DNA of 39,009 nt from NCBI GenBank assembly GCA_020342025.1, contig CP070840.1, positions 4,117,696-4,156,704 on the forward strand, given 5' to 3'. The position numbers and the translations under genes were made by a program. The notes beneath the pieces are model-generated. The model was not told where the DNA came from, searched no databases, and saw nothing but the letters and a program-made list of their open reading frames with translations. Numbering within the stretch: the first letter of the stretch is position 1; every line of letters begins with the position of its first letter. The DNA is from Deltaproteobacteria bacterium. Lineage in GTDB: Bacteria > Desulfobacterota > DSM-4660 > Desulfatiglandales > HGW-15. Positions 11,733-36,471 of the stretch are shown piece by piece.

Positions 11733-11748
11733 TGCAAACGATGTGCCT
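11733..11748 (-). promoter_or_regulatory. Sigma-54 promoter for the minus-strand UspA
   Basis: On the minus strand it reads AGGCACATCGTTTGCA: GG and GC are separated by exactly 10 nt, as sigma-54 needs. The GG lies 116 bp from the centre of the enhancer-like element at 11856-11870. The transcript would start near 11722. Confidence 0.75.
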
Positions 11749-11844
11749 GACAGAGAGAAAGATTCTAATTCGGATAACTGCTGAATAATACATACAGATC
11801 CTGATGAATTGTTGAATGCAAGGCAGGGACAACCAAAACGATCC

Positions 11845-11870
11845 TGTCAGACTTTTTTCCAGCCTGAAAA
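11845..11870 (-). promoter_or_regulatory. Degenerate enhancer-like element for UspA
   Basis: Minus strand: TTTTCA-GGC-TGGAAA, then 6 nt, then TGACA. Two mismatches from TTTACA-N3-TGTAAA, but the trailing YGACA and the 116-bp distance to the promoter match the other six copies. A partial IHF-like match (WATCAA-N4-TTR, 11 of 13) lies 79 bp from the centre, near 11775-11787. Confidence 0.65.
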
Positions 11871-11935
11871 ACGGGCTACATTCCGCAGCGCTCCGAAGGC
11901 GCCCCGGGATCGTGTTGTCAGCATGGGTCCCAATC

Positions 11936-11961
11936 TTTACAGCCTGTAAAGAAATCCGACA
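11936..11961 (+). promoter_or_regulatory. Enhancer-like palindrome upstream of the ACT-protein operon
   Basis: TTTACA-GCC-TGTAAA at 11936-11950, then 6 nt, then CGACA at 11957-11961. The centre at 11943 lies 117 bp from the GG of the sigma-54 promoter at 12059. The spacing and the trailing CGACA are shared with the other copies in the window. Confidence 0.85.
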
Positions 11962-12018
11962 AGTTCCTTCAGGGGATCAGAGAATGCATCCCGTCACCCA
12001 CCCAAATAAATTTCTTAT

Positions 12019-12031
12019 ATTCAAAGAGTTG
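12019..12031 (+). promoter_or_regulatory. IHF-like site between enhancer and sigma-54 promoter
   Basis: ATTCAAAGAGTTG matches 12 of 13 positions of the IHF consensus WATCAA-N4-TTR. Its CAA begins 79 bp after the palindrome centre, the same distance as in three other plus-strand cassettes. DNA bending here would bring the activator to the promoter. Confidence 0.5.
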
Positions 12032-12058
12032 GACCATATTGTCTGATCGTATTCATCC

Positions 12059-12074
12059 TGGCACACTGTTTGCT
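12059..12074 (+). promoter_or_regulatory. Sigma-54 promoter for the ACT/AcuB-like operon
   Basis: TGGCACACTGTTTGCT with 10 nt between GG and GC, a near-consensus -24/-12 element. The transcript would start near 12085, leaving a leader of about 100 nt before the gene at 12184. Confidence 0.88.
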
Positions 12075-12183: not shown

Positions 12184-12591
12184 ATGACCGGAAATTCTAC
12201 AACAGTGAATTTCGATCAGAATCTGAAGGAGATGGCCGAGGGGGTCTCAAAAAGCAAAATATCTGGAGATTCCGTAGATGACTATGAGCCGCAGGCCACA
12301 CATGCAATCACACAGTCAGACATTTCTCTGTTGCCGGTTTTCTTGAAGGATCTGAGTGAAAAAGGGGTACCTCTTAGCCTTATAGTGGAAGGTCGATCTG
12401 GCTCTATTAAAAAGGTCACCGATATCATTCGGAAGTATGGGGGCCGTACGGCGACTATCGTGACTAGCCGTGAAGGGATCCCCGAAGGTCATCGTAGAGT
12501 CGATATCCTTACATATGGGATTGATCGCGGCAGGTTTCCACAACTTAGGCAAGAGTTAAAGGGAAAGGCCGAACTTCCCCCCTATTTCTAG
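12184..12591 (+). CDS. ACT-domain protein, truncated paralogue of the AcuB-like CBS-CBS-ACT family
   Basis: 135 residues. The last 75 (VPLSLIVEGRSGSIKKVTDI, then IRKYGGR) align with the C-terminal ACT domain of the full-length neighbour at 12672. About 50 residues before that keep only traces of the second CBS domain (KISG, and ITQSDI), and the first CBS domain is absent. GGGAGG sits before the ATG, so it appears to be translated. It is the first gene after a strong sigma-54 cassette, 80 bp ahead of the intact paralogue. An adenylate-blind ACT-only partner is possible; so is a decaying duplicate. Confidence 0.75.
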   Translation: MTGNSTTVNFDQNLKEMAEGVSKSKISGDSVDDYEPQATHAITQSDISLLPVFLKDLSEKGVPLSLIVEGRSGSIKKVTDIIRKYGGRTATIVTSREGIPEGHRRVDILTYGIDRGRFPQLRQELKGKAELPPYF

Positions 12592-12671
12592 GAGCAACTT
12601 CTTCCCCGCTGTCATCGTGAAGCTTCGGCGTGAAGTGCAAGTCAGATGTGAACAAAAAAGGAGGAATAACC

Positions 12672-13349
12672 ATGTTAGTTAAAGACTGGATGAGTAAAGA
12701 TGTCATTAAGATTGACGAAAATGAATCTATGCAGGAGGCTATAAAATACTTAAAGGAACATGACATCCGGATGCTGCCTGTCATGAAAAAAGGTAAGCTC
12801 GTGGGGATTGTCACTGACCGCGACCTGAAAAGGGCATCCGCTTCCGATGCCACCTTACTTGAGATTCACGAACTGATTTATATCCTTGCACAAATCAAGG
12901 TAAAGGAGATCATGACCAAGAACCCCATAACGGTACCTTTCGATTACACCGTGGAGGAGACAGCCGAAATTCTGCTGACCAATAAAATATCTGGAGCCCC
13001 TGTGGTTGACCATGAGGGACAGCTCATGGGCACGATTACACAATCGGATATATTCAAGGTCCTGGTTTCCTTAACAGGTCTCAGTAAAAGGGGAATCTCA
13101 TTCTCGTTCATGGTGGAGGATCGCTCAGGATCTATCAAGGAGGTTACAGACATTATCCGAGCCTATGGGGGGCGTATGGCCAGCATCCTGAGTTCTTATG
13201 AGCGGATTCCCAAGGGATATCGCCGAGTCTACGTTCGCATGTATAACGTGGATCGATCCAGGATCCCCCAGCTCAAAGAGGAGCTCAAAGCAAAGGCAGC
13301 ACTGCTCTACATGGTGGATCACAGGGAGAACGCGAGGGAGATCTTTTAA
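12672..13349 (+). CDS. AcuB-like CBS-CBS-ACT regulatory protein (copy 1)
   Basis: 225 residues: a CBS pair (MLVKDWMSKDVIKID; GIVTDRDLKRASASD; KEIMTKNPITVPFDYTVEE; GTITQSDIFKVL) followed by an ACT domain (FMVEDRSGSIKEVTDIIRAY) and a conserved end (YMVDHRENAREIF). CBS pairs of this type bind adenosine nucleotides, and the architecture matches Bacillus AcuB. I chose the ATG at 12672, with GGAGG just upstream; the frame is open to a GTG at 12630, but the paralogues all begin MLV(K/R)xWM. Follows the truncated paralogue in the same operon. Confidence 0.9.
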   Translation: MLVKDWMSKDVIKIDENESMQEAIKYLKEHDIRMLPVMKKGKLVGIVTDRDLKRASASDATLLEIHELIYILAQIKVKEIMTKNPITVPFDYTVEETAEILLTNKISGAPVVDHEGQLMGTITQSDIFKVLVSLTGLSKRGISFSFMVEDRSGSIKEVTDIIRAYGGRMASILSSYERIPKGYRRVYVRMYNVDRSRIPQLKEELKAKAALLYMVDHRENAREIF

Positions 13350-13467
13350 AGTGGAAATTTAAGCGTTTCGTCCACATAGTCTGAGCAGATTTTATCTTTT
13401 TGGAGAACTGGGGAGAAAATTTTTCCCCTGGTAGGGAGCATTACCTTGACTCGAAGGAGGAATGATC

Positions 13468-14160
13468 ATGGCAGACACAAAACCTCAAGAAATAATCATG
13501 TTGGAAATACTCATAGACGCTGCGACTTCAGGAAAGAAGGTGGATCTGAGTCCAGAACCCGTTCGGGAAGTCGTCAAATGGGAGCATGATGGTGAAGAGG
13601 TAAATACCGTGATTTTATCTATGAAATATACGGGCACAATCGAGGGCAATCCCTTTAAGTTCAACAAGAATTATTCTTTTACCGAGGATGATACACCAAA
13701 TGCTCTTGCGTGTCTCTTGATTGCGAATAACAGACTGCAAACAGACTACGATAGGCTCAAAGAGGCCGGCGTGGCCGTAAAAGAGGCTTTTTTTACGTTT
13801 CAAAATGTATTTTTCGGTTTGCCTGGAGCCGCTTCAATGAAAAACCCTGCCTTAAGGTTACAGGACTTCATTCACCTCTTCCGTTCGGGTATACCGGTCT
13901 CTGTTGATGTGTCCCTCAAGCGTCCCGCCATTACGCTTAGCCAAGAGGGCGTGGAAGAGAAAGGGATTGGGTATTTGGCAAACTTTGTTTTCACCTCTGG
14001 AAAGGAAAGAACAACTATTGAAAAGCTCTATGGTCTGGAATTTAAGCGTGACACAGAGACATACCAAAAGGAAACGAGAAGGATGGTGAACAGACGTTTG
14101 GAAAGGGACTGTGACCGTCTAAGGCGCTCCGGCATGCAAGTTGATAAGCTGTCGTTTTGA
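13468..14160 (+). CDS. Conserved-looking cytoplasmic protein of unknown function
   Basis: A soluble 230-residue protein with no signal peptide, membrane helix or cysteine pair motif. It begins MADTKPQEIIM; the C-terminal third is strongly charged and helical (RRMVNRRLERDCDRLRRSG). AAGGAGG at 13454-13460 favours the ATG at 13468 over the ATG at 13462. It lies 118 bp after the AcuB-like gene and about 220 bp before sdhA on the same strand, so it may share transcripts with either. I do not recognise a family. Confidence 0.75.
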   Translation: MADTKPQEIIMLEILIDAATSGKKVDLSPEPVREVVKWEHDGEEVNTVILSMKYTGTIEGNPFKFNKNYSFTEDDTPNALACLLIANNRLQTDYDRLKEAGVAVKEAFFTFQNVFFGLPGAASMKNPALRLQDFIHLFRSGIPVSVDVSLKRPAITLSQEGVEEKGIGYLANFVFTSGKERTTIEKLYGLEFKRDTETYQKETRRMVNRRLERDCDRLRRSGMQVDKLSF

Positions 14161-14378
14161 GATGACTCGCAAGGCATAAACTGGGTGATCATCATGAAGA
14201 GCTAACAACCTAGTCGCTCGGGACACGAAGAGGTTTTCCAAATCTTCTTCAACCCCATTGTGCTTTGACCGAGAAAGCAGAATTTCAGATGGCCGTGGTC
14301 ATGGGAGCAGGCTGCGATGGGAGTCTGCCATGTCAAATAATGTATCCATGAGGTCTTTACGGCAGGTGGTGTTTCAAG

Positions 14379-16094
14379 ATGATGATCATTGATCATGATG
14401 TCATAATCCTCGGGAGCGGTTTGGCGGGATTACGTGCAGCCGTTGAGATGGGGAGAAATAGCGGCGGCAGTGTCCATATGGGGATTGTCTCTAAAGTTCA
14501 GTTAATGCGGTCCCATTCGGTCTGCGCTGAAGGGGGAACGGCAGCCGTGCTCCGTGAGGAGGAAGGGGACAGCCTTGACCTGCATGCCTGGGATACAATT
14601 AAAGGGTCAGATTTTCTCGCGGACCAGGATGCTGTATATCGATTTGTAGAATCGGCGCCGAAGGAGATCCTGCTGCTGGATCACTGGGGTCTGCCCTGGT
14701 CACGGCGGGAGGATGGCAGGATTCTTCAAAGGGTTTTCAGCGGCCATGGCTTTCCCCGCGCCGTGATGGGAGCGGATAAGACGGGATTTTTTGAAATGCA
14801 GGCCCTGTATGATACCCTCACACAATATGGAAATTTTACTCGGTATGATGAAGTGTTCGCGACATCCATCCTCATTGAGGATAACAGGTTTTGCGGTCTA
14901 ACGGTCATAGACGCAAGCACGGGCGAGTTTATCGTGATTCGGGGAAAGGCCTTACTCATTGCAACAGGTGGTCTCGGCACACTTTATGGGTTTACCACAT
15001 ATTCGCAAACCGTGACTGGCGACGGTCAAGCAATGGCCTATCGTGCCGGTCTCTCCTTAGAAGATATGGAGTTTATACAGTTTCATCCAACCGGACTTAT
15101 TCCCTCCGGCATATTGATATCAGAAGCATGTCGCGGGGAGGCGGGTTATTTGCGCAATAGGGATGAGGACCGCTTCATGAAGAAATATGCCCCGGAGAAG
15201 ATGGAACTTGCCCCTCGCGATATCGTCTCTCGGAGCGAAATGACCGAAATAATAGAAGGGCGTGCTTTTGAAGGGCCAGAAGGTTTAGAGTATATACACC
15301 TTGACCTGACACACTTGGGTGCTGAAAGGATTAAACGCCGCCTGCCGCTCATCCGTGAAGTGACCATGAAGTTCATCGGATTGGATCCAATTCATGAGCC
15401 TATCCCCGTTCGACCCGTTGCCCATTACTCCATGGGTGGCATCGAAGCGGATATCAACGGCAAGACGAGGGTGGAAGGGATCTGGGTCGCTGGGGAGGCA
15501 GCCTGCACATCCCTACACGGAGCGAATCGACTTGGCGCAAATTCCACGGCTGAATGTCTTGTTTGGGGCGGGATCGTTGGAAAGGCTATCGGGGAATATC
15601 TAAAGAGGAGTCCTGAAATGCCCGATGTGCCCTCAGATCGTGTTGAGGAGGAGGAAAGGCGCATATTTCAGGACCTTTTGAAGCGGGATGGAGAGGAGAA
15701 TCCATATCAAATGAGGCATGAACTGCGGGAGATTATGGGCAGGCATTTGGGCATATTTCGGACAGGGGATGAAATGGCGGAGGGACTTGAAAGAATAAGA
15801 CATCTGAGGAGGCGTTTCAAGCATGTAGAGATTAAGGATAAGAGTCGTGTTTACAATTCCAACCTTATCAATGCCCTCGAACTGGAGAACATGCTGCTCC
15901 TAGCAGAAACGGCAGTTATGGCGGCCCTAGCACGTGAGGAATCCAGGGGCGCACACGCAAGGCTGGATTTTCCCGTGCGTGATGACGAGAACTGGTTGAG
16001 GCACACGCTGATCACGTTGTTCGATGACGGACCGAAATTGGATTACAAAGATGTGACCATCACGAAATGGAAGCCGACGGAAAGAAGATATTAG
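14379..16094 (+). CDS. sdhA: Succinate dehydrogenase/fumarate reductase flavoprotein subunit
   Basis: 571 residues. The N-terminal dinucleotide fold (IILGSGLAGLRAA) is followed by RSHSVCAEGG, whose His46 corresponds to the His that carries covalent FAD. The dicarboxylate site motifs are present: QFHPTGL, PRDIVSRSEMTE and PVAHYSMGG. SLHGANRLGANSTAEC near residue 380 is the usual FAD-binding end motif. It interconverts succinate and fumarate with the SdhB and membrane subunits downstream; the direction (fumarate reduction or succinate oxidation) cannot be told from sequence. The ribosome site before the ATG at 14379 is weak. The gene order is A-C-D-B. Confidence 0.96.
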   Translation: MMIIDHDVIILGSGLAGLRAAVEMGRNSGGSVHMGIVSKVQLMRSHSVCAEGGTAAVLREEEGDSLDLHAWDTIKGSDFLADQDAVYRFVESAPKEILLLDHWGLPWSRREDGRILQRVFSGHGFPRAVMGADKTGFFEMQALYDTLTQYGNFTRYDEVFATSILIEDNRFCGLTVIDASTGEFIVIRGKALLIATGGLGTLYGFTTYSQTVTGDGQAMAYRAGLSLEDMEFIQFHPTGLIPSGILISEACRGEAGYLRNRDEDRFMKKYAPEKMELAPRDIVSRSEMTEIIEGRAFEGPEGLEYIHLDLTHLGAERIKRRLPLIREVTMKFIGLDPIHEPIPVRPVAHYSMGGIEADINGKTRVEGIWVAGEAACTSLHGANRLGANSTAECLVWGGIVGKAIGEYLKRSPEMPDVPSDRVEEEERRIFQDLLKRDGEENPYQMRHELREIMGRHLGIFRTGDEMAEGLERIRHLRRRFKHVEIKDKSRVYNSNLINALELENMLLLAETAVMAALAREESRGAHARLDFPVRDDENWLRHTLITLFDDGPKLDYKDVTITKWKPTERRY

Positions 16095-16206
16095 AAAAAT
16101 CCTATAAATTTTCCTTTTTGAAAGACTCTCAAGTTTCGGCCAGCATAATAATAAAATGTGAAATTCAGACAACTGAAATGTCACGAAAGATATTTATGGG
16201 GCAAAA

Positions 16207-16635
16207 ATGAGATATCCGAACAGCTTAGGACTCATGGGATGGCTTGCTGGGGGGAGATGGGGCGTAGAGCGATACCTTTATGTGTTACACCGGCTCACTG
16301 GACTGGGCATGTTGCTCTATTTGTTCGTGCATGTCTTCGTCACCTCTGCACGTGCATTCGGAAGGGGACCGTGGGAGAGATGGATGGGGATCTTTGAATC
16401 ACCGCTGTTTGTCATTGGGGAATTCCTCGTATTTGTCGCATTTGCCTTTCACGCTGTAAACGGAATGAGACTGATTCTCATAGAGCTGGGCTTTGCCGTG
16501 GGCAGGCCTGAGGAACCCATATACCCCTACAGATCCTCACTGAACACCCAGCGTCCACTCGTGGTCCTGGCCATGATCGTTGTGGCTATCTTGGTCGCTA
16601 TGGGTGGTTATGAATTCCTGGGACTCAGTCATTAG
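16207..16635 (+). CDS. sdhC: Succinate dehydrogenase/fumarate reductase cytochrome b subunit (SdhC-like)
   Basis: A 142-residue membrane anchor with three hydrophobic helices. The family haem/quinone motif HRLTG follows the first amphipathic segment, and His residues in LFVHVFV and FAFHAVNGMRLI are candidate haem ligands. It lies 112 bp after sdhA and 10 bp before the next anchor gene. Confidence 0.88.
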   Translation: MRYPNSLGLMGWLAGGRWGVERYLYVLHRLTGLGMLLYLFVHVFVTSARAFGRGPWERWMGIFESPLFVIGEFLVFVAFAFHAVNGMRLILIELGFAVGRPEEPIYPYRSSLNTQRPLVVLAMIVVAILVAMGGYEFLGLSH

Positions 16636-16645
16636 GGAGAGGGAT

Positions 16646-17020
16646 ATGCGGGAGACAAAATACTGGACCTGGCACATGCTTGCTGGCGTCATCATTCTGG
16701 TGCTGCTTGGTATTCACATCATAACCGTGCATATGTGGTCTCTTCTTGGTTGGTTCAATCCAGCCGGAGGAAAAGCGACCGAATGGGCCAATCTCACAGC
16801 AAGGGCAAGGCTTGGCATCTATGCGGCCACCTATGTTCTTTTGCTCGCAGCAGCCCTTTATCACGGTCTTTATGGCTTTAGGACCATTCTGTTCGAACTG
16901 GGACTCAAGCCCGCGAGTCAGAGGTTTCTAAACATTCTGTTTATCATAATGGGGACCTGCCTCTTTACATTAGGGGCCTGGGTGACATTGAGATTTCATT
17001 GGATTGCTAAAGGCGCTTGA
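16646..17020 (+). CDS. sdhD: Succinate dehydrogenase/fumarate reductase second membrane anchor (SdhD-like)
   Basis: A 124-residue protein with three hydrophobic helices and candidate haem or quinone-side His residues in YWTWHMLAG, GIHIITVHMW and ALYHGLYGFRTI. I chose the ATG at 16646 with GGGAGAGG upstream; the open frame extends back into sdhC but without a good site. Having two separate anchors resembles the four-subunit enzymes. It ends 13 bp before sdhB starts. Confidence 0.85.
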   Translation: MRETKYWTWHMLAGVIILVLLGIHIITVHMWSLLGWFNPAGGKATEWANLTARARLGIYAATYVLLLAAALYHGLYGFRTILFELGLKPASQRFLNILFIIMGTCLFTLGAWVTLRFHWIAKGA

Positions 17021-17033
17021 GGAGATTTCAAGG

Positions 17034-17882
17034 ATGACTAAGAATAGGGAGACACAAAAGGAAACGGATGTGATCTTCCACATCCGCCGATATAGCCCTG
17101 AGGTAGATGGGGAACCTTATTGGCAAAGGTTCACCGTGCATGTGGAGCCAGGGATGGTTGTCCTCGACGGGTTGCATCGAATCAGGGAGATACAAGATCC
17201 TTCGTTGACCTTTCGATATTCCTGTCGAATGGGCGTGTGCGGTTCCTGTGGTATGCTGTTGAACGGTCGACCTTCCTTGGCGTGCAGCACGCAGATTCTC
17301 CATATCGCGAGAAAAGATCTAACGGTTGCTTCACTTCCAAACCTGGACATTATCAAAGACTTGGTCCCTGACCTGACAACCTTTTTCGAAAAGCACATAT
17401 CCATACATCCCTATGTGGTCAGGGATGATGGCGACGAGATGTTGAATCCCACAGGAGAGTTCTACCAGAGTATGGAAGAACTTATTTCGTATCTTCAGTT
17501 CACATACTGTATCAAATGTGGACTTTGCATTTCTGCCTGTCCCACTTTAGCCACGGACCAGGAGTACATCGGACCCCAAGCCCTTGCCCAGGCCTACCGT
17601 TACAGCAAGGACACACGCGATGACGGCTTCAGTTTGCGAAAAAATGTGGCGGGCGGTACGCACGGCGCATTCAGGTGTCATTACGCCGGCGAGTGTTCAA
17701 ATGTATGTCCCAAGGGGGTTGACCCTGCTCGTGCCATACAACTTATGAAACGGGACCTGGTGTTGGACTACTTGAAACTCAGGAGGCGCAAAGTGAAAAG
17801 CCACGTATGTAGCAGACCAGGAGTCATGGTGCGGCCACCAGAGATCCCCGAGCCTCCCCCTTTTACCGTCGATCGGAAGTAG
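17034..17882 (+). CDS. sdhB: Succinate dehydrogenase/fumarate reductase iron-sulfur subunit
   Basis: 282 residues. The N-terminal plant-type [2Fe-2S] domain has YSCRMGVCGSCGM, with a further Cys in SLACST. The C-terminal ferredoxin-like domain holds CIKCGLCISACPT and CHYAGECSNVCPKGVDP, the usual ligand groups for the [4Fe-4S] and [3Fe-4S] clusters. It carries electrons between SdhA and the membrane anchors. I placed the start at the ATG at 17034, with GAGGAG about 9 nt upstream; the open frame reaches back to 17004. The tail after residue 255 is basic and Pro-rich. Confidence 0.95.
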   Translation: MTKNRETQKETDVIFHIRRYSPEVDGEPYWQRFTVHVEPGMVVLDGLHRIREIQDPSLTFRYSCRMGVCGSCGMLLNGRPSLACSTQILHIARKDLTVASLPNLDIIKDLVPDLTTFFEKHISIHPYVVRDDGDEMLNPTGEFYQSMEELISYLQFTYCIKCGLCISACPTLATDQEYIGPQALAQAYRYSKDTRDDGFSLRKNVAGGTHGAFRCHYAGECSNVCPKGVDPARAIQLMKRDLVLDYLKLRRRKVKSHVCSRPGVMVRPPEIPEPPPFTVDRK

Positions 17883-17954: not shown

Positions 17955-17980
17955 TTTACAATTTGTAAAAATAGTCGACA
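17955..17980 (+). promoter_or_regulatory. Enhancer-like palindrome upstream of the HdrD-like gene
   Basis: TTTACA-ATT-TGTAAA at 17955-17969, then 6 nt, then CGACA at 17976-17980. The centre at 17962 is 116 bp from the GG of the sigma-54 promoter at 18077. An IHF-core match CAA-GGCC-TTA begins 79 bp after the centre, at 18041. Confidence 0.85.
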
Positions 17981-18076
17981 TACAAAAGCCTTAGCTGCCT
18001 GAACGCCTTCCCATCGCTTCTCCTTTTATTCCAGTGAGTACAAGGCCTTAGAGGAATGCCAAAAGACTTTTATATT

Positions 18077-18092
18077 TGGCATCCCTCTTGCT
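18077..18092 (+). promoter_or_regulatory. Sigma-54 promoter for the HdrD-like oxidoreductase
   Basis: TGGCATCCCTCTTGCT with 10 nt between GG and GC. The predicted start near 18103 gives a leader of about 165 nt before the gene at 18270. Confidence 0.85.
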
Positions 18093-20276: not shown

Positions 20277-20386
20277 ACGTCGATACGAGGGTGACTAAGA
20301 ACAATTCATATAAAGGCGTTTGTGGTCTCTTGTGAGGAGAGAGTAACAGATTAAGCGCACCTGTGAGAAGAAAAGGAGGAGCAACG

Positions 20387-22613: not shown

Positions 22614-22640
22614 TCCCATGTTTTGTCAGGGTATTCCTAT

Positions 22641-26741: not shown

Positions 26742-26757
26742 TGGCATACCCGTTGCT
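26742..26757 (+). promoter_or_regulatory. Sigma-54 promoter for tandem Usp 1
   Basis: TGGCATACCCGTTGCT with 10 nt between GG and GC. The transcript would start near 26768, about 54 nt before the ATG. Confidence 0.88.
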
Positions 26758-26821
26758 GTCAATAGCATGCAGAGTATTTGATCGTTTTCTAAAGCGGCGA
26801 AACGAATAGGGAGGATTGGCA

Positions 26822-27721: not shown

Positions 27722-27892
27722 AATACCCGCGCCATTTGCATTGATGTCTGCAGGGGAACACCTTCCTCACTTCTCTTGGTTGTTCATCGTTTCTAAGGGC
27801 TCCAGCACCCCTAGAGATAGATCTGCATACCCTTTATCTAGCATGGTGAAAGGGGATAAGGGAGAGGAAAAACCAGCAAGGGAGAAACGGAG

Positions 27893-28558: not shown

Positions 28559-28568
28559 AGAACTGGCA

Positions 28569-29243
28569 TTGACCGCAAAAACCAAGAATAAGGCTATTCT
28601 AATCATGGGTTGTGCGGGAATTCTTCTTGGCTTAGCCGGATATGTTTTCCCCAAAAGGGTATCGGATTTGCCTCCACGGATCTATTTTGAAACGGTGGGC
28701 GGCCACGTGCTTTTTACCCATCAGATCCACACGGATCCTTCCCAATTCACGTGCGGAAGCCCTATCAATGTTTCCAAAATGAGTTGTGCCGATTGCCACC
28801 ATGAGATGGTTCAAGCGAACCATGTTTTCCCATGTAAAAAATGCCACCCAGGGGAGGATTATTCAAAGGAGTCTATGCCGCATTCGGAGTTGTTGGCAAT
28901 GCATCCGCCCGGGTGCACTCTCTGCCATAGCCCACGACCTGGAAGAGTGAAACCCTGCGGGACCTGCCATTTGCGAAAGGGAGAACCGAAACCGGTTTCG
29001 TGCGATAAATGCCACTCTGGAGAGGGGTATAGTGCAAAAGATTTCAGCCACGAGGAACTAGAAGAAATGGAGGGGCACTGGTGCACCGAGTGTCATAGTG
29101 TCCGCCGTAAGGCCGATGCGATTCATATGCGTTGTAACCGATGCCACAAAGACTTGGAATGCGGGACCTACATTAAGAAAAAAGAGCCAAGCGATGAGGG
29201 ATTCGCCTGTGCCCTTTGCCATTTGAAATCAGGCTCACTATAG
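28569..29243 (+). CDS. Octahaem c-type cytochrome, upstream of rnf
   Basis: 224 residues. After a basic N-terminus, a hydrophobic segment (AILIMGCAGILLGLAGYVF) acts as signal peptide or anchor, placing the rest in the periplasm. There are eight CxxCH sites: CADCH, CKKCH, CTLCH, CGTCH, CDKCH, CTECH, CNRCH and CALCH. Several extra His residues can serve as sixth ligands, as in class III cytochromes. The likely start is the TTG at 28569; the ATG at 28605 would remove the basic part of the signal. A multihaem cytochrome gene next to rnf is known from Desulfovibrio and Methanosarcina, where it exchanges electrons with the complex. Confidence 0.9.
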   Translation: MTAKTKNKAILIMGCAGILLGLAGYVFPKRVSDLPPRIYFETVGGHVLFTHQIHTDPSQFTCGSPINVSKMSCADCHHEMVQANHVFPCKKCHPGEDYSKESMPHSELLAMHPPGCTLCHSPRPGRVKPCGTCHLRKGEPKPVSCDKCHSGEGYSAKDFSHEELEEMEGHWCTECHSVRRKADAIHMRCNRCHKDLECGTYIKKKEPSDEGFACALCHLKSGSL

Positions 29244-29367
29244 ATGGGGTGAAAATCGGTAAGATTTTGATATTATACCTTTTTTCTGTTGATCGGCGCG
29301 ACTATATGACTGCAGTATCTTATGCGACATGGCAGGTGAAATCAAATGGAAATGAAAAGAGGTTCTT

Positions 29368-30696
29368 ATGTGGAGGCGATTTCTTGGTTTCCTGAGACCA
29401 AAGATCACATTAGAAGGCTGGGATGGTGAGGTAGAGACACTACCTCCCCCAGATTCAGTGACACTTCCCCTCTCACAACCAGATCAAATGCCCTTTAATC
29501 CCATTGTGGAGGTGGGGGACAGGGTAAAGACAGGGCAGTTCATTGCCATGCTGCCCAGCTGCACCGGTGTTCATGCCACTGTAACCGGCAAGGTGAGTTC
29601 CATCGGACCTGGCTATTCACCCCATGGTCAGAAAATTCTCACCATTTCAATTCAGCGAGAGTCCGACGACGAGTTTGAGACGCCGATAATAGTGGAAAAC
29701 CTGGCAAAAGCACCAAGGGATCAACTGATTCAGACGATGGCCGACCTGGGATTTGCATCGCCATGGAAACCGGAGTCCTTGAAGGACAAACTTTCGGAAA
29801 TGGAGCGAATTCCGATTCACACGGTCATCATTCGTGCGGTTGACGAGGAACCGCCGATATCCGTACAGCGACGCTTTCTCAACGAATTTTCCCGTGACTT
29901 TGCGGAATCCGTGGAGGGGCTTCGAAACATTTCCGGGGATGCCCGAATCGTCGTCGCAGTTCCCGAATCAATGGCCGGTCAGGCGCAATCCATTTTGAAG
30001 AATGTGGAGATCTTTCCGGTCGGCAACTCAACCCTGGAGACGAATCCCAGACTATTGATCTATAAAATTACCGGCAAATTTTTCGCCTCAAACGAGCGTC
30101 CTCGCCGGGACGGAATCGCAGTCATTTCAGCAGAAAATTTGGCCTTCGTCGCACGATGTCTTCATAAGGGCAAATCCAGGACCAATAAACTGGTCACCGT
30201 TTCTTCCCCAGATCTGGGTAACCCGGTCACGATTCGGGCTCGGCTGGGTACACCGGTTTCGCATGTTCTAAAAGCGCTGAATGTTAAAGTTGCTGCAGGC
30301 GACCGGATTATTTTCGGTGGTCCCCTGATGGGAGTTGCCCAGCCAGATATGAAAGCCAATGTGGTTTGGGGTGTCAACGGAGTCACCGTGATCAGAGCAT
30401 CCAATGTGGCACCGTTTACTGACGCGCCTTGCATCAATTGCGGCCGGTGTGTAAGGGTGTGTCCTGTCAATATCCAGGTCAATCTGGTGGGCCGTTATGC
30501 AGAGTTTGGTTATTTTGAGAAGGCCGTCATGGGGGGATCCCTATCTTGTGTGGGATGCAGTCTGTGTGCCTATGCATGCCCCTCCCGCAGACCCCTTCTC
30601 CAATATATGATATTTGCGAACAATCAGTATGGGTTACAGGTAGAAGAGGCTCAGGAGTGGGAAGAAGGAGAAGAAGATGGCGCGGGCAGTCTTTAA
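29368..30696 (+). CDS. rnfC: Rnf complex subunit C (divergent)
   Basis: 442 residues, peripheral membrane subunit. The N-terminal barrel-sandwich part (VEVGDRVKTGQFIAM; VHATVTGKVSSI) and the C-terminal pair of [4Fe-4S] motifs (CINCGRCVRVCP; CVGCSLCAYACPSRRPL) are normal. In the central part the usual glycine-rich GLGGAGFPT-type motif is replaced by DLGFASPWKPESL, and the NGAECEPY-type motif by RAVDEEPPIS. These motifs belong to the NADH/FMN-binding region shared with the complex I 51-kDa subunit, so NADH oxidation here is doubtful. An AAGAGG site precedes the ATG. It overlaps rnfD by 20 bp. Confidence 0.92.
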   Translation: MWRRFLGFLRPKITLEGWDGEVETLPPPDSVTLPLSQPDQMPFNPIVEVGDRVKTGQFIAMLPSCTGVHATVTGKVSSIGPGYSPHGQKILTISIQRESDDEFETPIIVENLAKAPRDQLIQTMADLGFASPWKPESLKDKLSEMERIPIHTVIIRAVDEEPPISVQRRFLNEFSRDFAESVEGLRNISGDARIVVAVPESMAGQAQSILKNVEIFPVGNSTLETNPRLLIYKITGKFFASNERPRRDGIAVISAENLAFVARCLHKGKSRTNKLVTVSSPDLGNPVTIRARLGTPVSHVLKALNVKVAAGDRIIFGGPLMGVAQPDMKANVVWGVNGVTVIRASNVAPFTDAPCINCGRCVRVCPVNIQVNLVGRYAEFGYFEKAVMGGSLSCVGCSLCAYACPSRRPLLQYMIFANNQYGLQVEEAQEWEEGEEDGAGSL

Positions 30697-31654
30697 TGTA
30701 GCGGTGGGCCCCCATGTCCACGACGGATCTGGCGCATCGCAAATAATGATCGGGTATCTTTTGGCTCTCATTCCCGCCTCGATCTGGGGTTGTATCCGAT
30801 ACGGTCTGCCGGGTGTCTCCACGCTCCTTGTGGCAGTGGGAAGCGCTGTGGTGTGGGAGTGGATCGCACGGAAGTTAATGAAGAGAAACATAACACTTCA
30901 TGACGGTTCGGCTGTTGTCCAGGGCCTTTTGGTGGGTATGATGCTGCCCGCAAATAGTTCTTGGTGGCTGATCACCGTGGGAACTTTCTTGGCAATTGTT
31001 CTGGGAAAGCAGTTCTTTGGGGGCATCGGTTGTTACCCATTCAATCCGGTTCTGGTCGGGTTTGCAATTTTATCGATTTCCTGGCCGCTTCGAATTTCGT
31101 CTCACTTCACGATGACGGACTGGCATCTGGATGGTTTAGTACTGGAGCCTCTGGTGGCACTCAAGAGCTATGGCCCTCGGGTGATTGATGTCTACCACCC
31201 AAAGGATCTTTTGCTTGGATTCCAAACCGGTGGCGTCGGTACGGGAGCCGTATTGCTTTTGGCCATTGGGGGACTCTATTTGATGGCCAGGGGATTTATA
31301 TCGTGGCGGGTTAGCCTATCCTATTTATTGGGTGTTGCGGTCACGGCTGAACTCTTCCACGTGGCAGATGCCTCGAAGTACGCGGGTCCCCTGTTTCACC
31401 TCCTTGCTGGAATGACTATTTTCGGGGCATTCTTTTTGGCTTCGGACTATACCACTTGCCCTGTGAATCCAACAGCCAGAATAATCTATGGTTTTGGGGC
31501 CGGCATGTTCATTATTCTCGTTCGAAATATTGGCGGTTACCCAGATGGAACCGTTTTTGCCATACTGATTTTGAACATGTTTCATCCCCTACTGGACCGT
31601 ATCCATAAACCGGTGCCAGGGGTGAGGGCGCTCGCGCTGAAGCTCAGGGAGTGA
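30677..31654 (+). CDS. rnfD: Rnf complex subunit D
   Basis: 325 residues with many membrane helices. It is recognised by GGIGCYPFNPVLVGFA and by FLASDYTTCPVNPTARIIYG near the C-terminus. The segment that should carry the covalent-FMN Thr (usually S/T-G/A-A-T before P-L) reads GLVLEPLVALK, with Glu157 at the Thr position, so the flavin site may be absent. AAGGAG precedes the ATG inside the end of rnfC. Confidence 0.92.
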   Translation: MARAVFNVAVGPHVHDGSGASQIMIGYLLALIPASIWGCIRYGLPGVSTLLVAVGSAVVWEWIARKLMKRNITLHDGSAVVQGLLVGMMLPANSSWWLITVGTFLAIVLGKQFFGGIGCYPFNPVLVGFAILSISWPLRISSHFTMTDWHLDGLVLEPLVALKSYGPRVIDVYHPKDLLLGFQTGGVGTGAVLLLAIGGLYLMARGFISWRVSLSYLLGVAVTAELFHVADASKYAGPLFHLLAGMTIFGAFFLASDYTTCPVNPTARIIYGFGAGMFIILVRNIGGYPDGTVFAILILNMFHPLLDRIHKPVPGVRALALKLRE

Positions 31655-31690
31655 GGTGTTGCTTCTCTTTGCAATTAGAGGGTCCTGCAA

Positions 31691-32290
31691 ATGAATGGAA
31701 TAACGAAGATGGTCCTAGTTGCAACAATTATCTGTTCCTTTTCAGCCGCATGGCTTGGGGCATTGAATAAAGGGCTTGAGAAACGCATTCAAAAGCAAGA
31801 GGACTATTTCATACGGGGGCCTTCCATTATGGAATTATTGGAGGGTTGCCCGAATGACCCCCTCACCGATCGAATTACCCTCAAGAAGGAGAAAGATCAT
31901 ATCAGCATTTACCCCTGGGTAGAGGCAGGTAAGGTTCGGAGGGTAGCCCTGGAAGGAACCGGCCGGGGTGGATACGGGGGAGATATTATTGTGATTTCGT
32001 CGGTGGATCTGGAATCCAATCGTATTCGCGGCGTGAGGGTGACCCAACATAAGGAAACACCTGGCGTTGGTACCCGTGCCATGGAACCCTCCTACCTGAA
32101 TCAGTACGTTAAGCTGTCTATAAAAGAGGAGATCAAACTAAAAAAAGAGGGTGGTCAGGTGGATGCCATCACCGGCGCCAGCCTGAGCAGCGCAGCCATT
32201 GCAGATGCTGTTGACCAATCCGTGAAATTCGTGACGGATAACAAGGAGAGGATTATCAAAGCAGTATTGGAAAATAAGGGCATTAAATAG
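31691..32290 (+). CDS. rnfG: Rnf complex subunit G (FMN-binding)
   Basis: 199 residues: one N-terminal membrane helix (MVLVATIICSFSAAWLGAL), then a periplasmic FMN-binding domain. The flavinylation motif is DAITGAS with Ser164 in place of the usual Thr; Ser is a known acceptor in some ApbE targets, so FMN attachment remains likely. It starts 36 bp after rnfD; the ribosome site is weak. Confidence 0.92.
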   Translation: MNGITKMVLVATIICSFSAAWLGALNKGLEKRIQKQEDYFIRGPSIMELLEGCPNDPLTDRITLKKEKDHISIYPWVEAGKVRRVALEGTGRGGYGGDIIVISSVDLESNRIRGVRVTQHKETPGVGTRAMEPSYLNQYVKLSIKEEIKLKKEGGQVDAITGASLSSAAIADAVDQSVKFVTDNKERIIKAVLENKGIK

Positions 32291-32301
32291 AGGGAATCAG
32301 C

Positions 32302-32904
32302 ATGAGGGTGGTCAAAGAGTTTAAGAAAGGTTTTTCCACGGAACTGGCACCTTTCCGGCTTGTCCTGGGACTCTGTCCCACACTGGCAGTTACAACCATA
32401 GCTGAGAACGGACTTGGGATGGGGTTGGCGACAACCTTTGTTCTGACCTGTTCAAATATCATGATCTCTCTGTTGCGCCATATCATTCCCAAGAAGGTAA
32501 GAATCGCATGTTATATCGTTTTGATCGCCACCTTTGTGGTGACGGTTGAGCTGCTGTTACAAGCATTTTTCTATCCGCTCTACCGGCGATTGGGGATTTT
32601 TGTCCCCCTGATTGTGGTTAACTGTATCATTCTGGGCAGGGCTGAAGCCTTTGCATCAAAAAATAGGGTGGGATACTCAGTGGTGGATGGGCTGGGAGTG
32701 GGTCTTGGATTCACCCTGTCGCTTACGTTTCTGGGAGGTCTGCGGGAGGTGCTCGGAATGGGAACGCTCTTTGGCCTGCATGTTATGTGGGAAGGGTTTG
32801 AACCATTCGGCTTCATAGTAAAGGCCCCGGGAGCTTTTGTCACGTTGGGTGTTCTTCTGTTCCTGATGAACGTCATGACATCCCTGAACAGGGGAAGGGC
32901 TTAG
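32302..32904 (+). CDS. rnfE: Rnf complex subunit E
   Basis: A 200-residue integral membrane protein with about six helices, homologous to RnfA in inverted topology. The conserved Cys residues for the shared intramembrane [2Fe-2S] cluster are present in GLCPTLAVTT and VVNCIILGRAEAFASKN. It starts 11 bp after rnfG and ends 11 bp before rnfA. Confidence 0.95.
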   Translation: MRVVKEFKKGFSTELAPFRLVLGLCPTLAVTTIAENGLGMGLATTFVLTCSNIMISLLRHIIPKKVRIACYIVLIATFVVTVELLLQAFFYPLYRRLGIFVPLIVVNCIILGRAEAFASKNRVGYSVVDGLGVGLGFTLSLTFLGGLREVLGMGTLFGLHVMWEGFEPFGFIVKAPGAFVTLGVLLFLMNVMTSLNRGRA

Positions 32905-32915
32905 GAGGTTTATAC

Positions 32916-33488
32916 ATGGAATATTTTGTATTGGTCATCAGTGCCATTCTTGTGAACAACATCCTGCTGGCCCAATATCTGGGGAATTGCCCGTTTCTTG
33001 GCGTGTCTAAACAGATGGATACGGCACTCGGCATGGGGGCTGCTGTTATTTTCACCATCACCTTGGCGTCCATGCTTGCATGGTGCGTACAACGCTGGCT
33101 CCTGGTTCCTTTGGAACTGGAATTTCTTCGAACCATCGCCTTTATTCTGGTGATTGCCTCCCTGGTTCAGTTTGTGGAAATATTCATGAAAAAAATGATG
33201 GATCCCCTCTATCAGGCCTTAGGCATCTTCTTGCCCCTTATAACCACCAACTGCGCAGTCTTGGGCGTAGCAATTATTTGCATTAGGAACGACTATTCCT
33301 ATCTCAAAACAATCCTCTTTTCTTTCTCCTCCGGTGTGGGTTTTGCCTTGGCCCTCGTGCTTTTTGCTGGCTTGAGGGAGAGATTCGCCATATCGAGGAT
33401 CCCCCAGACCCTTCAGGGTACGGCCATCGGGCTTGTGACCGCTGGTCTCATGTCCCTGGCGTTTCTGGGCTTCTTGGGGATGACGTGA
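32916..33488 (+). CDS. rnfA: Rnf complex subunit A
   Basis: A 190-residue integral membrane protein. LLAQYLGNCPFLGVSKQMD and TTNCAVLGVAI carry the conserved Cys ligands that pair with those of RnfE. AGGAGG lies just upstream of the ATG. With RnfE it forms the core through which electrons cross the membrane while ions are moved. Confidence 0.95.
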   Translation: MEYFVLVISAILVNNILLAQYLGNCPFLGVSKQMDTALGMGAAVIFTITLASMLAWCVQRWLLVPLELEFLRTIAFILVIASLVQFVEIFMKKMMDPLYQALGIFLPLITTNCAVLGVAIICIRNDYSYLKTILFSFSSGVGFALALVLFAGLRERFAISRIPQTLQGTAIGLVTAGLMSLAFLGFLGMT

Positions 33489-33538
33489 TCTGAGGTTGCC
33501 AAGACGAGGGATCGACCCTTAAGCAAAGGACTGTTGTA

Positions 33539-35638
33539 ATGATGGCTGGTTTATTGGTTTTAGGTGGTATCGGGTTTCTAGCAGCACTGTTACTGGGTTA
33601 TGCATCCCGGGTCTTTTACGTGAAAGAAGATCCGTTGGTCACTGAAGTTGAAGATGCCCTCCCGGGTGCAAATTGTGGTGGTTGCGGGTACGCAGGGTGC
33701 CATGCGGCCGCTATGGCTATCGCTCGCGGCAAAGCACTCCCAAACATATGTGTTGGCGGCAGCCCTGAAGTGGGGGAAAACGTAGCAAATATCATGGGCT
33801 TGAAAGTCGTTGCTAAAGAGCCTGAACTGGCAAGCAGAGATTGTTGCGGGGGTGCCCGAGCGCTTGAGAAATACCACTATGATGGCATTCAGGATTGCAG
33901 GGCAGCCAACATGTTGTTTGGGGGCACCAAACTATGCCAGCACGGATGTCTGGGGTTTGGGACCTGCGTGGCCAATTGCCCTTTTGGGGCCATTGAGATG
34001 GGGCCAAACCGGCTGCCGGTTTTTTTACCCGATCTGTGTCGAGGTTGCGGCACTTGTGTGCGTGTCTGCCCAAGGGGCATTATTTCTCTGATTTCCTCCA
34101 CCGCAAAAATTCTTCACTTCAACCAGTTTTCAGAGTGTCTCGCGCCATGTCGACAGAAGTGTCCTGCGCAGATCAATATCCCCACATATATCGAGCATAT
34201 CCGAGAAGGGCGATTTAAGGAGGCCCTCCTGACGATTAAGGAACGGAACCCGTTCCCACTCTCATGCGGCCGCGTTTGCCCGCATCCATGCGAAGAAGTG
34301 TGCCGCCGAGGCGTTGAGGATGAGCCAGTGGCCATCAATCACCTCAAGCGTTATGTGGCGGATTGGGAGAAGAATCGGTACCTTCATCTGCCTGTTTCAG
34401 TGGCCGCCCCCACAGGGCACAAGGTGGCCGTCATCGGTGGGGGACCGGCGGGCCTTTCTTGCGCATATTTCCTGCGAAGATTGGGTCATAAGGTAAACAT
34501 TTATGAACAAATGCCGAAGCTAGGGGGTATGCTTCGATATGGTATTCCAGAATACCGACTGCCCAAGAAGATCCTGGACTGGGATATTGAAGGAATCATT
34601 AATTTGGGTATCGAGGTGAGAACGGGTGTCACGTTCGGCGAAGATTTCGATCTTGAGTTTCTGCGTGCTGCAGGCTTTGATGCCGTTTTTTTGGGCATTG
34701 GTGCCTGGTGTGGCCGTAAAATAGGGATAGAGGGGGAAGATCTTCAGGGCGTTTGGGACGGTATCGACTTTCTCTGCCGATTCCATCTTGATGACATGCC
34801 CAGAGTTGGTCGCCATGTGGTCGTGTTAGGAGGAGGAAATACGGCTATTGATGCGGCCAGATCGGCTCTGCGCCTCGGGTGCAGAAAAGCGACCTTGATG
34901 TACCGCCGTTCCAGGGATGAGATGCCGGCTAACGATATGGAGGTTCAGTCAGCCATAGAAGAAGGCGTCGAAATGCATTTCCTCGCGGCACCCTCACGCA
35001 TTCTCGGTAGAGACGGGAAAGTTACCCAGATCGAATATATCGAGATGCGGCTCACTGATCCGGATTCAAGCGGCCGGCGGCGACCGGTACCCATCCCTGG
35101 TTCAGAAACGCTCATGGATGCCGATACGATTATTGCCGCCATCGGCCAGTTCTCCGACCGGGGTTTCATCCGTGAGGGAAAGCTGATCAGCCATTTAAGA
35201 GTCACCAAATGGGATACCATCGACGCCGATGAAGAGACTCTCCAGACCGAAATACCCTATGTTTTCACCGGCGGTGACTCCTTTACAGGGCCTTCCATTG
35301 CAGTCGAAGCCATAGGCGCGGGTCGCTATGCAGCTCGGTCCATTCACTACCTCCTGACCGAGGGTAAAATTCCGCCCATCGAGGAGAAACAGACTGAGCT
35401 CATCAAGGAAACCCTCTTTGAATATGTTGAAGGCCTACAAGAAGTGCCACGGGTTCAGCCTCGTGAACTGAAGATTGACACAAGGATCATGCATTTTGAG
35501 GAAGTGGAACACACCCTCTCTCAGCATGAGGCACGAAGAGAAGCCTCTCGCTGTTTGCGTTGCGGACTGATATGCTATAATCGTGATATCGTAGAGGCGA
35601 TGGGAAGAGAACTGGAAGCCCTTTCTGGGAAAGGGTAA
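33539..35638 (+). CDS. rnfB: RnfB fused to a GltD-type NAD(P)H:acceptor oxidoreductase
   Basis: 699 residues, over twice the usual RnfB. Residues 1-25 form the membrane helix; NCGGCGYAGCHAAAMAIARG begins the RnfB iron-sulfur domain; CLGFGTCVANCPFG and CRGCGTCVRVCPRG are the two ferredoxin motifs. A complete GltD/NfnB-like module begins near residue 200: CLAPCRQKCPAQINIP and CGRVCPHPCEEVC (N-terminal clusters), VAVIGGGPAGLSCAYFLRRL (FAD), VVVLGGGNTAIDAARSALRL with YRRSRDEMPA (NADPH-type site), and a second FAD motif GGDSFTGPSIAVEA. A short Cys motif (CLRCGLICYN) ends it. The fusion implies direct electron exchange between pyridine nucleotide and RnfB. Confidence 0.93.
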   Translation: MMAGLLVLGGIGFLAALLLGYASRVFYVKEDPLVTEVEDALPGANCGGCGYAGCHAAAMAIARGKALPNICVGGSPEVGENVANIMGLKVVAKEPELASRDCCGGARALEKYHYDGIQDCRAANMLFGGTKLCQHGCLGFGTCVANCPFGAIEMGPNRLPVFLPDLCRGCGTCVRVCPRGIISLISSTAKILHFNQFSECLAPCRQKCPAQINIPTYIEHIREGRFKEALLTIKERNPFPLSCGRVCPHPCEEVCRRGVEDEPVAINHLKRYVADWEKNRYLHLPVSVAAPTGHKVAVIGGGPAGLSCAYFLRRLGHKVNIYEQMPKLGGMLRYGIPEYRLPKKILDWDIEGIINLGIEVRTGVTFGEDFDLEFLRAAGFDAVFLGIGAWCGRKIGIEGEDLQGVWDGIDFLCRFHLDDMPRVGRHVVVLGGGNTAIDAARSALRLGCRKATLMYRRSRDEMPANDMEVQSAIEEGVEMHFLAAPSRILGRDGKVTQIEYIEMRLTDPDSSGRRRPVPIPGSETLMDADTIIAAIGQFSDRGFIREGKLISHLRVTKWDTIDADEETLQTEIPYVFTGGDSFTGPSIAVEAIGAGRYAARSIHYLLTEGKIPPIEEKQTELIKETLFEYVEGLQEVPRVQPRELKIDTRIMHFEEVEHTLSQHEARREASRCLRCGLICYNRDIVEAMGRELEALSGKG

Positions 35639-35675
35639 ACGGAATCAGTGGCGAGAGCCTGAAGGGAGGAGAAGT

Positions 35676-36143
35676 GTGGAGAGAAATGAAAGACCAAAAG
35701 ACCGTACCTACTTGGAAAAAACCAGGTATAACGTACGCGTCCGCTTAAAGAGGCGTAGATTTCTCCATGCCTATTGCCCGAAATGCACAGGCTACCTGAT
35801 TAAGGATAACAACGTCCAGCTTGTGGCGGAGACCGAAGAAGGCGGGAAAGAGATTTTGGACCTGATTCTGTATCTTAATATCTATGAAGCCGCAAATAAG
35901 CACGAGATTGTCAGGCGTCCGAGGGCCGAGCTCAAAGACGTAGAATGTCCCATTTGCAATCAAAGCCTCGTTCATCCGGAAGTTCTCTGCGGGGTGTGTG
36001 GATCTCGTCCCGCTGAATTGTCGGTGGCAGCGGTGCATATCCAGGTCCCTTTTTTGTTTTGCCTGAAACAAGGATGTCATTGGCACGCGATAACGCCGGA
36101 GGATGAACTCCTCCTGATAAAGGACAGTTCCCGCGAATGGTAA
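35676..36143 (+). CDS. Zinc-ribbon protein at the end of the rnf operon
   Basis: 155 residues, cytoplasmic, very basic at the N-terminus (KTRYNVRVRLKRRRF). Cys pairs CPKC, CPIC and CGVC plus a last CLKQGCHWH suggest two zinc ribbons or a rubredoxin-like metal site. It starts at the GTG at 35676 with GGAGGAG upstream, 37 bp after rnfB, so it is probably co-transcribed. Family unknown; assembly or regulation of the complex is a guess from position. Confidence 0.75.
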   Translation: MERNERPKDRTYLEKTRYNVRVRLKRRRFLHAYCPKCTGYLIKDNNVQLVAETEEGGKEILDLILYLNIYEAANKHEIVRRPRAELKDVECPICNQSLVHPEVLCGVCGSRPAELSVAAVHIQVPFLFCLKQGCHWHAITPEDELLLIKDSSREW

Positions 36144-36330
36144 GGTCCCGCCAATCAGTCTTTTTAGGTAAAATGGAGGTAGGGATATTAGAGAAAAAAG
36201 TGGTATCAAAGAACGTGAAAACTTCAGGTCCCTGTGGGATTCCTTATCTTGGGAATCGAGTGGGTGAACCCCTATAGGCATAAATAGGTCAGAGGGTTTC
36301 CTTGCCAAAGGGCGCGGCAACGTCGTCCTG

Positions 36331-36356
36331 TTTACAGTTTGTAAAGATATTCGACA
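36331..36356 (+). promoter_or_regulatory. Enhancer-like palindrome upstream of tandem Usp 2
   Basis: TTTACA-GTT-TGTAAA at 36331-36345, then 6 nt, then CGACA at 36352-36356. The centre at 36338 is 119 bp from the promoter GG at 36457. The IHF-like core is weaker here (GAA-N4-TTA at 36419). Confidence 0.85.
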
Positions 36357-36455
36357 GAGGCCGTCCATCTCGCCATATCAATCCCTCCTGTACATACCCA
36401 TAATCCCCCAATATTTCCGAAAAGTTAAAGCACATCATGAATTCGCTTCACCATT

Positions 36456-36471
36456 GGCATGTTAGTTGCTC
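36456..36471 (+). promoter_or_regulatory. Sigma-54 promoter for the Usp 2 - HydB/HydG-like operon
   Basis: TGGCATGTTAGTTGCT with 10 nt between GG and GC. The transcript would start near 36482, which rules out the TTG at 36466 as a start codon. Confidence 0.87.

Follow-up and report, generated by a model that had tools for sequence, protein, structure and literature searches.

A sigma-54 promoter cassette of near-constant geometry that recurs in genomes of sulfate reducers, and its probable NtrC-type activator

A stretch of 39,009 nucleotides from a Deltaproteobacteria bacterium of the phylum Desulfobacterota (assembly GCA_020342025.1, contig CP070840.1, positions 4,117,696 to 4,156,704; hereafter, the window) contains seven cassettes, each consisting of a palindrome of the TTTACA-N3-TGTAAA type, an element resembling a site for integration host factor (IHF) and a -24/-12 promoter of the sigma-54 type, in this order and at nearly constant distances. 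Comparison with related genomes indicates that these cassettes are likely to be the promoters of one sigma-54 regulon, controlled by a sensor kinase and an NtrC-type response regulator encoded in the same window, with a proposed IHF-bent loop between enhancer and promoter and with targets that may serve sulfate and energy metabolism. The system is known in kind; its rigid geometry and wide reach are unusual.

In the mechanism that we propose, the kinase would phosphorylate the regulator, which would then bind, some 140 bp ahead of the transcription start, to the sequence TTTACA-N3-TGTAAA-A-rich-C-YGACA. With the intervening DNA bent by IHF, the AAA+ ring of the regulator would contact the RNA polymerase carrying sigma-54 on the correct helical face and open the promoter. 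The regulon would supply sulfate uptake along with energy and electron-transfer functions, perhaps under limitation of sulfate or energy.

Architecture, recurrence and spacing of the cassettes

A sequence-only reading of the window had reported seven palindromes, each facing a -24/-12 promoter. All seven are present, with the GG of the promoter (GG-N10-GC) located 116 to 118 bp from the palindrome centre (Table 1); six of the distances given in that reading are correct, whereas the seventh, for the palindrome at 36338, is 118 rather than 119 bp. Five of the palindromes are perfect, that at 26277(-) has one mismatch and that at 11863(-) has two. With up to two mismatches allowed, the window contains 10 palindrome matches against 1.16 expected, a number reached in none of 100 shuffles. 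We trained a score model on 125 cassettes found in public genome contigs (the training sites, as in all our cassette score models, were selected by pattern). It recovered precisely the seven cassettes in the window and no other (scores of 39.9 to 62.7, the lowest being that of cassette 1); when the window was dinucleotide-shuffled 100 times, the comparison that had been proposed as a check, no cassette appeared. The window shuffles, together with the absence of reversed-pattern cassettes from related genomes (see below), rule out a chance origin of the cassettes. No known RNA family was detected in the window at Rfam gathering scores.

An exact CAA-N4-TTR core begins at +79 from the palindrome centre in four of the seven cassettes, all on the plus strand, as had been claimed, and weaker cores are indeed present in the other three; by eye, these have one mismatch and begin at +79 in the cassette at 26277(-) and at +80 in those at 11863(-) and 36338. 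The claimed shift of 2 bp in step with the promoter does not hold, the shift being 1 bp and the promoter of the 11863 cassette being no further off. The profile of the 125 cassettes anchored on the GG (one GG offset of 12, an overlapping match, was filtered beforehand) contains an A/T tract at -54 to -49, a WWTTCA-like stretch at -41 to -36 and TT at -30/-29, all of which are features of the IHF consensus. The CAA core is most frequent at -37 from the GG, and 41 of the 50 CAA-N4-TTR matches between enhancer and promoter fall at -42 to -36. The letters of the IHF consensus were absent from the search pattern, and the signature emerged from cassettes selected by that pattern. The element between enhancer and promoter is probably a DNA-bending site for IHF.

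The proposed search of related Desulfobacterota for the paired motifs showed that the cassette recurs. A less strict pattern (palindrome core followed by GACA, 86-106 bases and TGGC-N7-TTGC) matched at least 118 stretches in public genome contigs, compared to approximately 0.6 chance matches estimated for the whole collection. The matches listed have titles of the delta-proteobacterial type (Desulfobacterales, Desulfomonile, Desulfosarcina, Desulfonema, Syntrophobacteraceae, Desulfovibrionaceae and others), with the exception of L004, L020 and L097, which are titled merely 'Proteobacteria'; the list is compatible with, and does not exclude, cassettes in other groups. In the 125 cassettes of the 118 listed loci, columns outside the search pattern are conserved, yielding the enhancer consensus given above; YGACA, which the sequence-only reading had included in its search pattern, is conserved at +14 to +18 and belongs to the enhancer. 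In the promoter, where TGGC-N7-TTGC was part of the pattern, the columns A+3, Y+4 and R+5 are conserved although they were not searched for. Among 247 genomes drawn evenly from the phylum of Desulfonema magnum, 16 contain the strict cassette, with 35 matches in all; reversing the pattern as a control gave no cassette in the 247 genomes, nor in the 48 genomes of the spacing analysis below. Searches for the enhancer alone, with two mismatches allowed, returned 45 matches against one reversed-pattern match in genomes G276, G004 and G292.

The spacing is similarly conserved across genomes. When distances of 76-168 bp were allowed in 48 genomes, 127 of the 145 pairs had the GG at 113-119 bp from the palindrome centre; these genomes (50 loci, with one left out and two in the same genome) were picked for a cassette with a spacing of 106-126, which favours that range, and the count includes one enhancer, at 13967 in G280, twice (116 and 140). 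The outliers include spacings of 105-106 (five pairs) and 93-94 (two pairs), close to one and two helical turns less, and a Rayleigh test with a period of 10.5 on the 13 outliers gave p of about 0.012, so that a displacement by whole helical turns is suggestive only. In a less constrained test, which took enhancers (at most one mismatch) regardless of any promoter and covered 37 of the 41 listed in six genomes chosen for carrying cassettes, the best sigma-54 promoter within 220 bp was located at 113-119 bp for 33 enhancers, one of them with the poor promoter score of 2.1, and at 112, 110, 94 and 166 bp for the remaining four. In each of the loci L164 and L151, a near-perfect enhancer lacks any convincing sigma-54 promoter at the customary distance (best scores within 220 bp of 2.1 and 8.5). 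The near-constant spacing over many natural pairs, with outliers tending to lie whole helical turns away, constitutes a natural data set on the constraints that DNA looping places on sigma-54 activation.

The palindrome at 22525 is flanked by two divergent sigma-54-like promoters (22384-22655), one 117 bp away on the plus strand and the other, missed by the sequence-only reading, at 22398(-), with its GG 128 bp away on the opposite side. Lying between divergent promoters, this single enhancer may act on both genes. On the minus side, no IHF core occupies the predicted position. The gene on that side is cytidylate-kinase-like (21552-22322(-)), and such genes are found behind cassettes in other genomes, too.

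The arrangement of the cassette has precedents, NifA being a familiar case of IHF-dependent sigma-54 activation. IHF-dependent sigma-54 promoters are described as well for the orp operons of Desulfovibrio vulgaris, with enhancers at -131 and -88 and IHF sites at differing places (PMC3897727), and for CbrB of Pseudomonas putida, the sites of which are relaxed and of low conservation (PMC6296734, where NifA is mentioned also). The orp, CbrB and NifA promoters share with the cassettes the order of enhancer, IHF site and -24/-12 promoter, and IHF is required there for full activity; unlike in orp and CbrB, a single geometry is retained here across many promoters and genomes. Sigma-54 regulons of D. 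vulgaris Hildenborough, as described in PMC4641369 and PMC3333781, depend on NtrC-type activators with GAFTGA and palindromic sites (repeats of 4-6 bp spaced by 3-8 bp, with TGT/ACA half-sites 9, 11 or 12 bp apart). They resemble the present system in the type of activator, in the palindrome, given that TGT-N11-ACA is contained within the window site, and in the sigma-54 promoters, but differ in that the enhancer-promoter distance varies widely and that a regulon mostly comprises one to four operons. None of the regulons listed there in Table 1 is described with the present target set. No account of the motif was found in searches of the open-licence literature (by motif letters; sigma-54 regulons of Desulfovibrio, Desulfobacteraceae and Desulfobacterota; sigma-54 with sulfate uptake), judged mostly from listings and excluding figures and supplements, in line with the statement of the sequence-only reading that no description was known.

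Probable target genes and possible role of the proposed regulon

First genes and operons behind the cassettes were assigned by a simple open reading frame (ORF) rule; 11 of the 125 cassettes had no usable ORF, leaving 114 first genes. These include genes for members of the dCache (26), HATPase (22), Usp (15), TauE (13), receiver (11), CBS (7), DASS (6), CitMHS (6), ATP sulfurylase (3) and cytidylate-kinase-like (3) families. [NiFe]-hydrogenase operons follow cassettes in G010 (L175:9272-13259) and in G009 (L173:9453-18572), the latter operon also encoding NuoF/NuoG-like and molybdopterin-domain subunits. Modules of Cache kinases, receivers and DASS transporters are found downstream of cassettes in related genomes, though not in the window. 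When one dCache kinase, taken from a cassette locus, was used as the query in six genomes, the best match had an enhancer at most 500 bp upstream on the same strand in all six. The DASS and TauE families also transport other anions.

A 2025 study of Desulfosarcina variabilis described a gene cluster 30.5 kb long, in which DASS sulfate transporters are encoded together with cache-domain kinases, WalR-type regulators and CBS proteins; its relatives occur in a total of 26 species, and the kinases were proposed to sense sulfate (PMC11887813; for sulfate transporter families, see PMC5840216). The modules behind many cassettes resemble this cluster in combining Cache kinases, response regulators, CBS proteins and DASS transporters, and we therefore infer a part of the regulon in sulfate uptake and energy metabolism, an assignment that we hold to be evenly balanced. 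The differences are that the authors propose WalR-type regulators, that neither a sigma-54 promoter nor an NtrC-type regulator is mentioned in the section on the cluster (the main text has 'sigma54' a single time, in a general remark), and that no cassette precedes a DASS gene in the window.

Several observations weigh against the proposed regulon and its link to sulfate. By comparison of coordinates, an enhancer is located at most 2 kb upstream in 12 of all 20 dCache-kinase matches, and there is none in the other eight. Two of the three ATP sulfurylase genes behind cassettes, those in L059 of G014 and in L113, have leaders of 470-520 bp, and the length of these leaders makes this link weaker. 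In the window, the score model places no cassette ahead of the kinase and regulator genes, of the DASS-like transporter gene (5695-7470) or, within the window limits, of the TauE gene. An operon cut by the left edge of the window (350-5607) encodes REC, TauE, a protein without a family and a PPDK-like protein; since several related loci have this set behind a cassette, there may be one just beyond the edge here, too.

The same regulon, under the same regulator, could instead serve a general response to energy stress or starvation rather than sulfate supply, which is a serious contender, with somewhat less than an even chance of being correct. Along with the Usp and CBS genes among the 114 first genes, Usp and CBS proteins head or take part in six of the target sets in the window, and DVU3305, a sigma-54 response regulator of the general stress response in D. 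vulgaris, also targets UspA-domain genes (PMC3333781). DVU3305 differs from the window regulator in acting with a Lon-type receiver protein, in containing GAFSGA instead of GAFTGA and in its other targets, as described there. By contrast, the numbers of dCache, TauE, DASS, CitMHS and ATP sulfurylase first genes point to sulfate, as does the resemblance of the set of dCache kinases, DASS transporters and CBS proteins to the published sulfate-uptake cluster.

A far broader reading appears doubtful, namely that the two-component system would be a master switch acting through sigma-54 across Desulfobacterota, which would adjust sulfate uptake, sulfate activation and electron-transfer complexes to the availability of sulfate or to energy charge by way of an IHF-bent loop of helix-quantised length (approximately 94, 105, 116 or 126 bp). 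For the control of sulfate uptake and energy metabolism in Desulfobacteraceae-type sulfate reducers, the 2025 study could put forward no more than a model (PMC11887813); our analysis adds a candidate activator, its probable DNA site, a probable kinase and a list of targets, all of which can be tested.

The candidate activator and alternative explanations

The response regulator encoded in the window contains a receiver domain, an AAA+ domain with GAFTGA and a Fis helix-turn-helix. It is not NtrC proper (NR(I)), as its scores against the NCBIfam models, 491.9 bits for TIGR01818 and 413.4 for NF008176, are below the respective cut-offs of 558.6 and 620, and in a protein search the best 120 of 3245 matches bear generic names throughout. 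The adjacent gene encodes a sensor histidine kinase that is its probable partner: orthologs of the two adjoin each other in many cassette loci.

The regulator co-occurs with the motif. A clear ortholog, with 63-76% identity against at most 48% for the next matches, was identified in 15 of 16 motif-bearing genomes. Near-full-length orthologs with at least 60% identity are encoded in 45 of the 247 genomes (G053, with a partial match of 64%, was excluded), including 16 of the 16 cassette genomes (P = 1.2e-13, with relatedness ignored). Enhancers are located approximately 16-270 bp behind the regulator gene in eight genomes (G012, G046, G181, G239, G013, G009, G010 and G256). Flanks of the ortholog were retrieved for 20 of the 29 genomes in which this ortholog is present and the strict cassette is not; the model detects a full cassette in five of these flanks and an enhancer scoring above 22 in 12. 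The flanks of 20 distant relatives (47-57% identity) contain no cassette, the best enhancer score being 14.6 in the 10 flanks shown. The recognition helix reads SRPTL in 52 of the 53 ortholog rows, a few genomes being represented twice, and SRSTL in L125.

The sites cluster around the regulator gene, with a few elsewhere, in the window, in G013 (12 perfect sites in 110 kb), G009, G010, G256 and G046. Because of this clustering, the intergenic regions, which the sequence-only reading had taken to be independent and on both strands, are not all independent; nevertheless, the sites are spread in Desulfonema magnum (six across 3.5 Mb) and mostly scattered in G276, with a mixed pattern in G004 and G292. 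In D. magnum, a kinase 62% identical to that of the window is encoded behind a cassette far from the regulator gene (L177, G001:C1:3641358-3644630), and the regulator gene itself closes a cassette-led row of DASS, kinase and receiver genes. The conserved geometry, the co-occurrence and the proximity of one response regulator jointly lend good support to the proposal of one activator and one regulon, and we consider it very likely, from these comparisons, that the window regulator is the activator that reads the palindrome.

A number of observations count against this assignment. The strict cassette is missing in 29 of the 45 genomes with the ortholog, and 15 of the 20 flanks retrieved lack a full cassette, with eight lacking an enhancer that scores above 22. 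L219, a relative with 57% identity and the only one of the 20 distant relatives to have SRPTL, has no cassette in its flank. In six genomes (G013, G009, G010, G256, G046 and Desulfonema magnum), the enhancer alone, with two mismatches allowed, gave 68 matches against 18 with the reversed pattern. Finally, G014, a 2.4-Mb metagenome-assembled genome (MAG; bin233), has three strict cassettes (L029, L059 and L071, one of them ahead of an ATP sulfurylase gene) and no ortholog, the best match being 44% identical; G014 may be an incomplete MAG or may use another activator.

It is conceivable, then, that the cassettes form one sigma-54 regulon in which the palindrome is bound by another enhancer-binding protein of the same lineages, the response regulator being a mere neighbour. 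There would be no lack of candidates, with some 80-100 matches to the AAA+ activator family per genome (E at most 0.001; listing up to about 101), and the G014 cassettes fit this explanation. It is nonetheless improbable. The 118 listed cassette loci contain 22 activator matches that exceed 100 bits; the ortholog accounts for 18 of them, and one more (L011) is the tail of the ortholog of G012, as judged from its coordinates. Both the enhancers directly behind the ortholog in eight genomes and the cassette-free flanks of the distant relatives also run contrary to this explanation.

Inverted repeats of this size are common to many regulator families, so that the palindrome could be the operator of a regulator unrelated to sigma-54, such as a repressor or a protein of the FNR or LacI type, placed ahead of sigma-54 promoters under the control of other activators. 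This is very unlikely, because the constant 113-119 bp to the -24 element, the IHF-like element in between and the co-occurrence with an NtrC-type regulator are needed by an enhancer only. The notion that the cassettes are copies of a spreading repeat, with an inherited, non-functional spacing, is consistent with their local clustering, which is seen in the window as well as in five of the six genomes scanned for enhancers, but was rejected, with a negligible residual probability, since the spacer columns are nearly devoid of information across the 125 cassettes, which precede unrelated genes on both strands and keep the same spacing in many genomes.

Coordinates and minor features of the window

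Table 1. Cassette elements, probable target genes and the candidate regulatory pair in the window (offsets of GG and of IHF-like cores are in bp from the palindrome centre)
Feature	Positions	Strand	Sequence	Basis or remark
Sensor histidine kinase (4HB periplasmic sensor, HisKA, HATPase)	7683..9164	+		Pfam
NtrC-type response regulator (receiver, AAA+ with GAFTGA, Fis HTH)	9224..10654	+		Domain matches
Enhancer 1, centre 11863, two mismatches	11845..11870	-		Pattern and model score
-24/-12 promoter 1, GG at 116	11734..11748	-	AGGCACATCGTTTGC	T of TGGC replaced
Probable target 1: Usp	11015..11536	-		Pfam; putative operon, from position
Enhancer 2, centre 11943	11936..11961	+		Pattern and model score
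IHF-like core 2, +79	12022..12031	+	CAAAGAGTTG	
-24/-12 promoter 2, GG at 117	12059..12073	+	TGGCACACTGTTTGC	
Probable target 2: ORF without family, CBS-ACT, ORF without family, SDH/FRD-type subunits	12184..17882	+		Putative operon extent
Enhancer 3, centre 17962	17955..17980	+		Pattern and model score
IHF-like core 3, +79	18041..18050	+	CAAGGCCTTA	
-24/-12 promoter 3, GG at 116	18077..18091	+	TGGCATCCCTCTTGC	
Probable target 3: CCG/4Fe-4S protein, CBS protein	18270..21106	+		
Enhancer 4, centre 22525	22518..22543	+		Possibly common to two divergent promoters
IHF-like core 4, +79	22604..22613	+	CAATCAGTTG	
-24/-12 promoter 4, GG at 117	22641..22655	+	TGGCACACAGGTTGC	
Probable target 4: small ORF, CBS-ACT	22640..23732	+		Start of small ORF probably downstream of promoter
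Additional -24/-12-like promoter, facing cytidylate-kinase-like gene	22384..22398	-	TGGCACACGCCTTGC	Promoter score 21.9
Enhancer 5, centre 26277, one mismatch	26259..26284	-		Pattern and model score
-24/-12 promoter 5, GG at 116	26148..26162	-	TGGCACAGCGATTGC	
Probable target 5: 97-aa and 49-aa ORFs, then GAF kinase-receiver	23770..26080	-		
Enhancer 6, centre 26627	26620..26645	+		Pattern and model score
IHF-like core 6, +79	26706..26715	+	CAACCCCTTA	
-24/-12 promoter 6, GG at 116	26742..26756	+	TGGCATACCCGTTGC	
Probable target 6: Usp, DsrC-like, multihaem-type cytochrome, Rnf genes	26816..35638	+		Putative operon extent
Enhancer 7, centre 36338	36331..36356	+		Pattern and model score
-24/-12 promoter 7, GG at 118	36455..36469	+	TGGCATGTTAGTTGC	
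Probable target 7: Usp, hydrogenase/sulfite-reductase beta-like Fe-S protein	36466..38524	+		

The listed start of the Usp gene behind cassette 7 overlaps the promoter, and the true start is probably further downstream. Of the two small ORFs behind cassette 5 (25574-26080(-)), that of 97 codons has a good ribosome-binding site and the product of the 49-codon ORF is cysteine-rich. Two further TGGCA-N6-TTGC strings, with no enhancer at the distance typical of the cassettes, occur at 2229(+), within the gene 2191-2880, and at 10702(-), directly behind the regulator gene on the opposite strand.

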